Assembly (NCBI GenBank): GCA_001657385.1
Contig: LYSZ01000007.1
Span: 62,001-126,000, forward strand
Source of the DNA: Parvularcula sp. BBD 1991-13
GTDB taxonomy: Bacteria; Pseudomonadota; Alphaproteobacteria; Caulobacterales; Parvularculaceae
DNA: 64,000 nt
Direction: 5' to 3'
The translations under genes and the position numbers were made by a program. Below the pieces are notes generated by a model that saw only the letters and a list, made by a program, of their open reading frames with translations, was not told the origin of the DNA and searched no databases. Below, in pieces: positions 8,966 through 15,505 of this stretch (positions within the stretch are counted from its first letter, which is position 1; each line of letters starts with the position of its first letter).

Positions 8966-10480
8966 ATGCGAGTCATGATTGCGTTTTTCGCTTCTTTCAT
9001 CTTGGGTGCATCAGCTTCTATTGCAGATGATACACGTCGTCCGTGGCCCGAATATTTGTCCAAGGAATTGCCCTCAGATATTCAGCAAGTAGTGCGTGAT
9101 CATGTACGTTCAACAGCATCGACTATCGATTATGTTGAGCATGGGATTCTGACAAGATCAGACCGCGAAGATTTCCTGATAAAGGTAGCTCTTGGTGAAC
9201 TCCTGCAAACCAATGACGGTTTGTTACGTTTGCTGGACATATTGGAAACAACCGATGATGCTGAGCTAAAATTGGCAGTTGCGGAGCGTTTTGCGGCATT
9301 CGGTCGATTATTTAGTTTCGCCGAACCTGCTGTTGGGTATGCGGGAAAAGCAATTCCTGATAATCCGTCATCTTATGCCCCTGCAATTGCCCACGCATTG
9401 GAGAAAAGCGCGGCTCTTGCGAGAACGCCTGACGATGCTGTACAGCTAGCGCAGTACTTCACACAATTTCAACAACGACGCTTGCTCGGTTCACTTCATC
9501 CCGCTTTGGAGCGGGCTGTCGCAGTGGAAACAAAAGATGGTATAAGTGCTGATTCACTTCGAATGAGCCTTCATAACTTGTTTTCACCTGGTTCTCTCCC
9601 GCCATTTTTTTATGGTCGATTTCCGGCTATTACAGTAGATGTACCGCAAAAACGAAAAATTCGCGCGATTGTTCTTGGTGATTTCGGCACTGGGAGAGCG
9701 GAGCAATTTGCTACCGCAGAAGCCATTCGTGCAGAACATTTGAGGAAGCCATATGACTTGGGGATCACTGTTGGTGATAATTTTATGCCAAACGGTCTCA
9801 ACGATCCAGATCATCCTCGATGGAGGACTGAATGGGAGGAACCTTACGGATCAATGGGGATTACGTTTTACCCCGTTTTGGGGAACCATGACTATGAAGG
9901 GGAGGGCGCAGCTTTAGCCCAAATTGTCTACTCAGAACAAAGTCAAAGTTGGTCACTTCCTAGTCCGAATTATTCGGTTCACACGGGACTTATAGATTTT
10001 TTTGCAGTCGACACAAATACCCTTACTCAGCCTCAGTTAGACTGGCTTGGTGTAGCGCTTCATGAGAGCACAGCGCAGTGGAAAATCGTTTATGGTCATC
10101 ACCCGATTTATTCCTCCGGCTACATCAGTGACCATACACACGAGCCAGCCAACCTTGTTGACCGACTTCTCCCTGTACTGAAAGCGGGCGGGGTCGATGC
10201 CTACTTCAATGGACACAATCACATTATGGAAGAGTGGGTACCGCAAGATGGTGTTCATCTCTTCACAGTAGGTGCTGGAGGATCGACATTGTCCAACACG
10301 GATAAGAGTGAAAATAGTTTATTTTTCGCAAGGCAACATGGATTTGTTGTTTTAGAGGTATCAGAAGATGAGCTGAATATAAAATTCAAAAATACATCAG
10401 GGTCGACATTGCACGAGAGAGTATTAAAGCCAAAACTACGGATGAGCAGAGGCGGCCACGAACGTACACTTATCAAATAG
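8966..10480 (+). CDS. Secreted metallophosphatase (purple-acid-phosphatase-like calcineurin fold)
   Basis: Signal peptide plus GDFG, GDN, GNHD, GHHP and GHNH metal-ligand motifs. Confidence 0.88.
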   Translation: MRVMIAFFASFILGASASIADDTRRPWPEYLSKELPSDIQQVVRDHVRSTASTIDYVEHGILTRSDREDFLIKVALGELLQTNDGLLRLLDILETTDDAELKLAVAERFAAFGRLFSFAEPAVGYAGKAIPDNPSSYAPAIAHALEKSAALARTPDDAVQLAQYFTQFQQRRLLGSLHPALERAVAVETKDGISADSLRMSLHNLFSPGSLPPFFYGRFPAITVDVPQKRKIRAIVLGDFGTGRAEQFATAEAIRAEHLRKPYDLGITVGDNFMPNGLNDPDHPRWRTEWEEPYGSMGITFYPVLGNHDYEGEGAALAQIVYSEQSQSWSLPSPNYSVHTGLIDFFAVDTNTLTQPQLDWLGVALHESTAQWKIVYGHHPIYSSGYISDHTHEPANLVDRLLPVLKAGGVDAYFNGHNHIMEEWVPQDGVHLFTVGAGGSTLSNTDKSENSLFFARQHGFVVLEVSEDELNIKFKNTSGSTLHERVLKPKLRMSRGGHERTLIK

Positions 10481-10490
10481 CTTGATGAAA

Positions 10491-12353
10491 TTAAATTTGA
10501 TGACCATGGTTATTTCTAACTGTTTCTATAGATCGCATCCAGCTTTCTGTTGTTAAAAGCCTTGTCATGGTTGCAAACATTGGCGCAATTCGTAGTTTAT
10601 CGACGTTGAGCAGAGACTCTAGCTTCTCTGCATCTAATAAATCGGTACCGATAAGAACGCCATCCAATAAGAAATCACGAACGTAGTTTAGGCTATTTAC
10701 ATAGCTTAATCCAACGTAAGATTTTACAAATCCTTTATCCAGACGCGAATAAACCTCATAGGGGAGGATTGATTTGAAAGCTTCTCGCGCCAAGCCGCGA
10801 CTTCGCCCTTTGTAAGCTAGAAGATACGTTGGAATCCTAGCAATAATCTCCATTATTGGCTGTGATATAAATGGATTTACGGAATCGAATTTTCCTCCAT
10901 AGCCGAACATATCTGAGTAAAAATCCAGGCTGTTGACCAGGCGAAGGTGTTGCTTTTTTGCTGGGCGGGTCTCAAGCGCGCGTTCCCATCCCTGTTCACT
11001 CGCAATTGCCGACGCGTACATGGATGTATCGTCTTGTATTTTCTTGTTCAAGACATCGAATTGTTTAAATCGATCGATCGTTTTCTTTGTCGTCTCTCCG
11101 GTCGCTAGGCACCGGACTAAATGCCAAACTGATTTTTGTGTCGGGTACGAAAGATTCTGAAGATGTTCAAAAAATCCAAAATCAACTCCCCGCTCAGTGA
11201 TGTAATCTTGTAAGATTGCCTCGTTGACGTTTTTTAAGAAGACTTGATCGCCGCCGAGGCCAGTGAAGACGGCTTGGGCTTTTATTGTACTGGCAAATTC
11301 AATAACATCGGCATAGAGTGCTGAATCTGCCAGCTGAGGTTTCGGGCTAGGTATTGCAACGCTAATCTCTCCATAAATATCTTCTAATTGACGGGGTTTA
11401 ATATAGCGAACCTCTAATGGTATTTCATGTTGTCTAGAAACCAGTTCCGCATATTGTTGTTCTGGATAATCTCCTGCTTCGGAACGTAAGTGAATCGCGT
11501 TTACCCTATCGGCGACCCCACACTCGGCCAAACAAGCGAGCAATATGGAAGAGTCCAATCCACCTGAATGTTGGAGGACAATTCTCTCGTAACTCTGTGC
11601 CCGTGATCCAATACAAGCCATTGTTACGGATCGAATGAGGTGTTTTGCTTGAAGCGGGTCATTAATTGGCTTGCTCGACAACTCTTCTACGCGCCATGAC
11701 CGGATACACGTTTCGCGCTCAGATTCATTTCTTAGTCTCGGAGTTGCGTTTAGGGTATGTCCTGGCGGTAGCTCCTTGAAACCTTCAATGCCAGTCGTTG
11801 GGGGCTCTGTCCAACCATTCAAAAGGTTCTGTAAAATTCCGCTTTCGCTATACGACAATGATAGTTCATCTATAATTGGCAAGACCGCTAATTGAGAAAA
11901 TGTGAAGAATAAACCTCGGTGCCAAGTAGAAAAGCACAATTGCGCACCTGTTGGGTCTCGCGCAACGCAAAAGGTGCCTTTATTCATTGTAAATCCAATA
12001 TACGTACCCCAATATCTCTCAGATAGAATTTGCAAATTACTTGATACGATTTGATCACATTCATTTTCTGATAGTTTTTCGACCCTATTTACCAGATCCC
12101 CATCAGGACCTTTTCTATAAAGGGTTCCTAATATACACCCGGAACTCTCGCCGATAGGTAATTTGTGAAATTGGCCCGATGACCGAAAGAATACCGCGGC
12201 GCCATCTGCTGCGAACCCATCAGCCCAGCCTATCGACGAATTAAAAGGTGTAGACGCTGCCATCTGACTCTTAGCCTTCAATATATAATTTCTTGCAGCT
12301 ATATTGGACCGCTCATTTTCTTTGTCCCAAGCTATGCTGAAAAATTCTAACAC
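10491..12353 (-). CDS. Lasso peptide cyclase (asparagine synthetase-like C protein)
   Basis: PP-loop HSGGLDSSILLACLAECG, second GLGGDQVF; adjacent to B protein and precursor. Confidence 0.9.
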   Translation of the reverse strand: MLEFFSIAWDKENERSNIAARNYILKAKSQMAASTPFNSSIGWADGFAADGAAVFFRSSGQFHKLPIGESSGCILGTLYRKGPDGDLVNRVEKLSENECDQIVSSNLQILSERYWGTYIGFTMNKGTFCVARDPTGAQLCFSTWHRGLFFTFSQLAVLPIIDELSLSYSESGILQNLLNGWTEPPTTGIEGFKELPPGHTLNATPRLRNESERETCIRSWRVEELSSKPINDPLQAKHLIRSVTMACIGSRAQSYERIVLQHSGGLDSSILLACLAECGVADRVNAIHLRSEAGDYPEQQYAELVSRQHEIPLEVRYIKPRQLEDIYGEISVAIPSPKPQLADSALYADVIEFASTIKAQAVFTGLGGDQVFLKNVNEAILQDYITERGVDFGFFEHLQNLSYPTQKSVWHLVRCLATGETTKKTIDRFKQFDVLNKKIQDDTSMYASAIASEQGWERALETRPAKKQHLRLVNSLDFYSDMFGYGGKFDSVNPFISQPIMEIIARIPTYLLAYKGRSRGLAREAFKSILPYEVYSRLDKGFVKSYVGLSYVNSLNYVRDFLLDGVLIGTDLLDAEKLESLLNVDKLRIAPMFATMTRLLTTESWMRSIETVRNNHGHQI

Positions 12354-14803: not shown

Positions 14804-14938
14804 ATTAGTTTACTTCAGCTCTTTTAATTGTGAGAGAAACAGTTGCAAAATACCATTTATTAACTACACATTTCTTGCACCGTTGGTGCGGCGACTGTCA
14901 CGTTATTCTGTATCGTCTGTTCGGTGCATGCTGGCGGT

Positions 14939-15505
14939 TTATGGATCGCATGTTGCCTTTTCGATCACCTGCCGCGCCATTTCTTCAAGCATACTGCGAC
15001 ACATTGATTCGTCATTGTGTATTGTAAAGTCCGCGTTCCTTGGAGGGTCTATAGTCTGATCTACGCCAGGAACATTCTTGACTCGTTTCTCAATACCGCG
15101 AGCGTAAAGACCATGGGGATGTCGGCGCACAATCAGGCTTGTTGGAGCGTCGATAAATATTTCATTGTAGCAAGGAATATGCTTACGGTTCCATTCATAC
15201 ACTGAATTAAACATTGATGTGGTTGCGCAAATGACGTTAAAGCCTTGCTGGCTTATGTATGCGGCGAGGCGTCCATAAGTCCCGCCAATACTTCGTCGGC
15301 TTTCGCGATCGAAACCGAAGACGTCGCCAAATACGCTCCGAACATCGTCGCCGTCCATCAATAGCGAGAAAGTTCCGACATTATTCAGTTGGCGAGTTAA
15401 TGCGCGAGCAAATGTAGATTTGCCGGCGCCGGGAAGGCCAGTAATCCAATAAACGGTTCCGGCGTTCTTACTCGATGTGGTGGCCGGCGATTTCATATCG
15501 GTCAT
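14939..15505 (-). CDS. Adenylylsulfate kinase-like (CysC-type) P-loop kinase
   Basis: Walker A ITGLPGAGKSTFAR, DGDDVR motif, VRRHPHGLYARGIEKRVKNVPGVDQTIDPP. Confidence 0.85.
   Translation of the reverse strand: MTDMKSPATTSSKNAGTVYWITGLPGAGKSTFARALTRQLNNVGTFSLLMDGDDVRSVFGDVFGFDRESRRSIGGTYGRLAAYISQQGFNVICATTSMFNSVYEWNRKHIPCYNEIFIDAPTSLIVRRHPHGLYARGIEKRVKNVPGVDQTIDPPRNADFTIHNDESMCRSMLEEMARQVIEKATCDP

Follow-up and report, generated by a model that had tools for sequence, protein, structure and literature searches.

We analysed a 64,000-nucleotide stretch of the Parvularcula sp. BBD 1991-13 genome (contig LYSZ01000007.1, positions 62,001 to 126,000; hereafter the window), which carries a complete lasso-peptide operon of precursor, LasB and LasC genes, preceded by genes for a TPR-LicD protein and a small P-loop kinase. 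Comparison with lasso loci of the same order places it in a LicD-containing subclass, and this subclass, together with a short motif in the peptide tail that is its candidate target, is the most solid new point of the analysis. Among lasso clusters of the isopeptidase type, the locus is a real and unusual variant, in which a metallophosphatase stands where the isopeptidase would be expected; this replacement is striking but single. Whether the locus represents a LicD-tailored subclass that uses the full kinase, LicD and phosphatase mechanism proposed below seems to us about evenly balanced.

The gene content described in an earlier note on this DNA, namely a lasso locus with a kinase, a LicD protein and a secreted metallophosphatase, was recovered by profile matches at the same coordinates. 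The minus strand carries, in the direction of transcription, the kinase (15505-14939), the TPR-LicD gene (14803-13481), the precursor (13307-13179), LasB (13091-12393) and LasC (12353-10491). Convergent with this operon is a plus-strand receptor operon (4259-8897) that encodes an extracytoplasmic function (ECF) sigma factor (4259-4888), FecR (4895-5950) and a TonB-dependent receptor (6237-8897), and to which the metallophosphatase gene (8966-10480) belongs as the last gene. The window lies on a contig of 162,621 bases (C17 in our numbering); the genome, of 4.24 Mb, holds one further lasso locus, on contig C4.

The TPR-LicD transferase and the tail motif of the precursor

The TPR-LicD protein has a nucleotidyltransferase-type fold by its match to PF04991 (LicD, 1.6e-6; 28.8 bits against a cut-off of 22.6, over part of the family) in addition to TPRs, and its GTLLG..R....HDRDVDIG and GID motifs are intact. 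The nucleotidyltransferase motif (GTLLG..R, [HY]D.D.D.G) was kept in 18 aligned lasso LicDs, with one H-to-Q change. Our survey sample comprised 299 genomes of the order, 81 of them with lasB, which occurs at about 119 sites overall; 80 of these loci were annotated, then 16 more, plus class-level loci. Sixteen of the 80 annotated loci, and two of the later 16, have a TPR-LicD gene directly 5' of the precursor gene. When the whole genomes were searched with a LicD alignment, 26 TPR-LicD genes were found, 24 of them within ~3.5 kb of lasB. The two exceptions (G375:C2:50577 and G573:C248:1897) come from one genus, in genomes that have no lasso locus, with no lasB or nearby lasC. In the LasC tree, a single clade (support 98) comprises 18 LicD loci together with one locus that lacks LicD; inside it, the window groups with the C4 locus as its sister (99). 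Because 24 of the 26 copies adjoin lasB, in one LasC clade, we take TPR-LicD to be a lasso tailoring gene on sequence grounds, and the link between LicD and lasso genes drawn in the earlier note is thus borne out across the 299 genomes. The same adjacency bears on the idea that kinase and LicD are a surface-polysaccharide island merely abutting the lasso genes. LicD and CysC-like kinases are indeed common in capsule loci, and one relative of the LicD protein lies in a Paracoccus capsule region that is not a lasso locus, but the position of the copies beside lasB, and the scanned part of the window, where no polysaccharide genes flank the pair, leave this explanation hardly credible.

A further, distant TPR-LicD relative on an Octadecabacter plasmid, again not in a lasso locus, has a flagellin gene on one side and a cytidylyltransferase-family gene on the other, neighbours that would fit a cytidine diphosphate (CDP)-linked donor and a protein acceptor. 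This gene context hints at a CDP-linked compound as the donor for LicD; phosphocholine is just one possible substituent. The plasmid relatives of LicD and of the phosphatase are distant from the window proteins. A fold search with the TPR-LicD model returned chiefly TPR structures, matches that do not inform the LicD domain, and an open-access literature search for LicD and lasso peptides found nothing relevant.

The precursor is a peptide of 42 amino acids, with leader MTETHTIDPSEDEVIVLGTISEETK and core GRDNGTPEFPGTKLSPA, the leader ending in SEET-K. Of its family matches, Subterisin in Pfam (3.8e-8) exceeds the cut-off and the benenodin family (4.6e-7) falls slightly short of it; the peptide also has the Thr at position -2 of the leader (T-K) and the predicted 8-residue ring (G1-E8) of a lasso precursor. 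The core is encoded at 13182-13232. Its two maturation enzymes have the features of a lasso cluster as well. LasB consists of an N-terminal part fused to a B2-type protease (Transglut_core3 and NCBIfam lasso_biosyn_B2, the latter with 54 bits, both above cut-off), and is highly divergent, a word search of 5.8 billion proteins having returned zero relatives; LasC is Asn-synthetase-like (Asn_synthase, 2.6e-16) with an intact SGGLDSS motif.

When the window precursor was aligned with 14 LicD-type precursors, G1 and E8 were invariant and a second conserved element emerged in the tail, a Ser or Thr followed by Arg or Lys ([ST][RK]), as in PNSRI, QNSRN, GNTRA, GNTKPLA, QSSRD, PVSRD and PTSRDEAG. It is present in 14/15 distinct cores from LicD-positive loci and in 2/53 from LicD-negative loci. 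Counted per LasC cluster, the figures are 10/11 and 2/23 (Fisher p=5e-6), p-values that overstate independence because the association rests on roughly one acquisition, LicD having probably been acquired once. The stronger argument is the conservation of the motif inside a hypervariable core: ring positions 2-7 of the LicD-type cores have entropies of 2.0-2.7 bits, the S/T column 0.7 bits and the R/K column 0.9 bits. The motif was first spotted in these same data, and a prediction was recorded before further loci were fetched. This held-out set covered 16 of the 36 remaining lasso loci of the order, two of them LicD-positive; the motif was found in both, one of whose cores duplicates a discovery core, and in zero LicD-negative cores. 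In the window core the motif is Thr12-Lys13 (codons 13197-13199 and 13194-13196), and since it is kept in LicD loci, Thr12 is the likely target residue. From these sequence comparisons, the LicD transferase probably attaches a phosphate-linked group to this one conserved residue of the peptide. Of the three sites that the earlier note had offered (Ser15, Thr12 or Thr6), Thr12 is thus retained and the other two are not favoured. Its broader proposal, that the peptide is tailored with a phospho-group, is plausible; the role that it gave to the kinase is not supported.

The P-loop kinase and the second lasso locus of the genome

The kinase is annotated most readily as an adenosine 5'-phosphosulfate (APS) kinase, since Pfam APS_kinase is its best match (3.3e-27), and the earlier note had called it APS-kinase-like. 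In our tree, however, the lasso kinases and other short kinases, which form a CDP-amidate-kinase-like group, are split from the APS kinases of CysNC (100/99), and in place of the ISPY or ISPF of APS kinases (CysC) they have CAT[IT]SMF or a near variant, which in the window reads TTSMF. The enzyme is thus better described as a member of a non-APS subfamily of the APS_kinase superfamily. The same split counts against sulfation, in which the kinase would make 3'-phosphoadenosine 5'-phosphosulfate for a peptide sulfotransferase; moreover, the genome already holds a separate CysNC (contig C5) and no sulfotransferase was found in the scanned gene set, so that despite the Pfam match we regard this route as very improbable.

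Within the short group, the lasso kinases fall in a clade of ten sequences with a support of 90/90, in a part of the tree where long branches meet. All seven non-lasso members adjoin a gene for a glutamine-kinase-like protein (phosphoenolpyruvate utiliser), and two of those cassettes that were examined by Pfam additionally carry a GATase-type hydrolase and a nucleoside triphosphate transferase. In Campylobacter, the Cj1415-Cj1418 set, with a CysC-like kinase and a glutamine kinase, makes CDP-phosphoramidate 3'-phosphate (PMC11800397; PMC6429109). Because its clade-mates sit in cassettes of this type, the window kinase probably acts, by analogy, on a CDP-linked donor and not on the peptide. The window system would then share with the Campylobacter pathway a CysC-like kinase of the same broad group and a CDP-linked phospho donor, but differ from it in the acceptor, presumably a peptide instead of a capsule, and in the glutamine kinase, for which a search (run without a positive control) gave no match in the Parvularcula genome. 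The donor may therefore be another CDP-X, or be made differently. One of these cassettes, in another genome (locus L041, 7471-12775), holds a TPR protein with weak LicD similarity directly upstream of the CDP-amidate-kinase-like kinase and the glutamine-kinase-like protein, and is a candidate for a phosphoramidate transfer cassette that lies apart from lasso genes.

The earlier note had instead proposed that the kinase phosphorylates the peptide. In the fullest form of this idea, the kinase would act on Thr12 or Ser15, LicD would extend the phosphate and the phosphatase would reverse the modification, an order like that of paeninodin or pseudomycoidin. Lasso clusters with pairs of a kinase and a nucleotidyltransferase that (poly)phosphorylate and then glycosylate the C-terminal Ser are known (PMC9266682, PMC8498205), and the pseudomycoidin cluster (PsmK kinase and PsmN nucleotidyltransferase) resembles ours in using a kinase and a nucleotidyltransferase-fold enzyme to tailor a hydroxyl of the lasso tail. 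The known kinases are HPr-kinase-like, however, whereas that of the window is of another P-loop family with relatives in CDP-phosphoramidate-type cassettes; and where pseudomycoidin is modified on a C-terminal Ser, the window has a TPR-LicD, an internal Ser/Thr before Arg/Lys and a receptor operon. Paeninodin-type clusters (PadeK, ThcoK, SyanK) likewise have a phospho-modified tail in common with our proposal, but a different kinase family and no LicD. In addition, LicD-positive lasso loci elsewhere in the order have no kinase, which argues that LicD does not need a phosphopeptide. We therefore consider phosphorylation of the peptide by the kinase unlikely, and prefer a role for this enzyme in preparing the donor. 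No such kinase was found in a lasso context outside the window genome, and a degenerate-pattern search for it across GTDB contigs returned zero.

Inside the genome it occurs in a lasso context twice. The C4 locus has the same gene order as the window (kinase, TPR-LicD, precursor, LasB, LasC and a convergent receptor operon), with identities of 51% for the kinase, 38% for TPR-LicD, 33% for LasB, 31% for LasC and 38% for the receptor, and its receptor operon ends in an S9 isopeptidase-like gene. The C4 precursor (L003 9206-9355) has an unusually long core of 33 residues (GSLGTFVE...CGCLE) with three cysteines.

The phosphatase in the isopeptidase slot

The window has the convergent sigma, FecR and lasso-type receptor operon of isopeptidase-type clusters. 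The sigma factor is FecI-like (sigma70-ECF, above cut-off), the FecR-type anti-sigma factor or transducer matches at 9.4e-16, and the receptor, a profile match with an STN domain, is lasso-type and the sister (100/99) of the C4-locus receptor, which argues that the swap affects the hydrolase alone. What is absent is the S9-type isopeptidase between LasC and the receptor. Among 71 comparable loci, an isopeptidase occupies the slot between lasC and the convergent TonB receptor in 69, the exceptions being the window and L174, and in the later locus set it does so in 8/8. The placement of the phosphatase at the isopeptidase position in the earlier note agrees with this comparison. Only 68 bases separate the receptor gene from the phosphatase gene, too few for an isopeptidase remnant, and a scan of window positions 1-24000 found no isopeptidase; the absence asserted in the earlier note is thus correct for the locus and not for the genome, in which the C4 locus keeps its isopeptidase-like gene. 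L174 was considered as a second phosphatase replacement and rejected. It is a decayed locus beside an unrelated operon of a TonB receptor, of another type, and a purple acid phosphatase; near its lasC and lasB (70-1353), the N-terminus of a lasso TonB receptor is fused to the C-terminus of an isopeptidase, a remnant of the decayed receptor operon. The window phosphatase is therefore the only isopeptidase replacement behind a lasso-type receptor among the 71.

The enzyme (Metallophos, 1.8e-14) is full length, with an N-terminal hydrophobic signal peptide recognised by eye, a helical N-domain and a phosphatase domain, and is predicted to be secreted. It resembles pig and human type-5 acid phosphatases in sequence (3e-35) and in predicted fold (Foldseek TM 0.74-0.80 by target length), and retains six of the seven type-5 metal ligands (D, D, Y, N, H, H, H). 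Another metallophosphatase-fold protein in a lasso cluster is MslH of MS-271, but this is an epimerase of CapA type, whereas the window enzyme is type-5-acid-phosphatase-like, predicted to be secreted and encoded on the receptor side.

The phosphatase could also have nothing to do with a modification, if the isopeptidase was lost, its place at the operon end was filled by a phosphate-scavenging enzyme, and any degradation of the peptide is left to the C4 isopeptidase in trans. The case is unique, an isopeptidase-like gene does exist in the C4 lasso locus, and L174 illustrates that receptor and phosphatase operons of this kind land near lasso genes. Here, by comparison, the receptor is lasso-type and sister to that of C4, the phosphatase follows it in the exact isopeptidase slot, and the enzyme is full length with metal-binding motifs. 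We regard an unrelated phosphatase as possible but doubtful.

Surroundings of the locus and a proposed pathway

An Rfam search of window positions 4000-17000 gave zero matches. About 1 kb from the kinase, the plus strand (16498-21237) encodes a MalT-like regulator (911 amino acids) followed by an ATP-binding cassette (ABC) exporter-type protein (ABC_membrane and ABC_tran), possibly the exporter of the peptide; a related MalT-like protein (24% identity, 8e-44) likewise borders the lasso genes on C4. A Fic/DOC protein (207-947, minus strand) and a TIR-domain protein (1582-2535, plus strand) lie between an integrase and the lasso locus, in what looks like a variable region. Upstream of the window, at ~51.8-55.8 kb of the contig (L004 1831-5828), ParA-like and ParB-like genes adjoin a replication-initiator-like gene, so that the contig may not be chromosomal but a plasmid or chromid.

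The analysis shows which genes are present, that LicD is linked to lasso loci, that the motif is conserved, that the isopeptidase slot has a different occupant and which subfamily the kinase belongs to; we infer every biochemical step of the pathway that follows. The TPR domain of the LicD protein would hold the peptide or precursor, while its LicD domain would move a phospho-substituent from a CDP-linked donor onto the Thr12 hydroxyl of the tail motif (Thr-Lys). By analogy with its relatives in CDP-phosphoramidate pathways, the small P-loop kinase would act on the donor (3'-phosphorylation of CDP-X) or on the substituent. The lasso with its 8-residue ring (G1-E8) would then be built by LasB and LasC, and the exported product would bind the TonB receptor and be taken up in a TonB-dependent manner, inducing the operon via STN, FecR and sigma factor, as in related clusters. 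The final hydrolytic step would be removal of the phospho-group by the periplasmic phosphatase, where elsewhere an isopeptidase opens the ring. We put forward a more specific version only tentatively. In it, a (3'-phospho-)CDP donor supplies the tail Ser/Thr of [ST][RK] with a group held by a phosphodiester or phosphoramidate bond, and in one lineage dephosphorylation has taken over from knot-opening by an isopeptidase as the reaction that completes a cycle of export, re-import and signalling. The benenodin, astexin and sphingopyxin clusters share with the window single-gene B and C, the lack of D in the operon and the convergent receptor operon, but have the isopeptidase where it has the type-5-acid-phosphatase-like enzyme, and the window adds LicD and kinase upstream of the precursor.

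Several observations weigh against this pathway. Kinase and LicD occur twice in the genome, and in the C4 locus they accompany an isopeptidase; in the C4 core, moreover, the residues aligned with the tail motif are Ser-Gly-Thr-Val (SGTV), not the exact motif. Since other LicD-positive loci have no kinase and no other examined lasso locus has the phosphatase, the three genes are not the conserved set that the earlier note had envisaged. The replacement is a single case, relatives of the phosphatase in reference genomes (GTDB contigs L198-L277) are not accompanied by lasso genes, and at the position of the metal-ligand Tyr of type-5 enzymes the window phosphatase has Met274, where P0011 and P0013, two of its closest relatives (P0011-P0016, 37-51%), have Tyr. 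The long branches in the kinase tree and the single probable acquisition of LicD count in the same direction, and without a glutamine kinase the known phosphoramidate route would be unavailable. Modification of the peptide, finally, is a deduction of chemistry from sequence.

A phosphatase in the isopeptidase slot offers a natural experiment on the role that isopeptidase-type lasso peptides play for the cells that make them. The slot swap, the clade-wide transferase and the conserved target motif suggest that the tail modification belongs to the signal or cargo and, if true, phosphotransfer from a CDP donor would be added to the known tailoring reactions of peptides.

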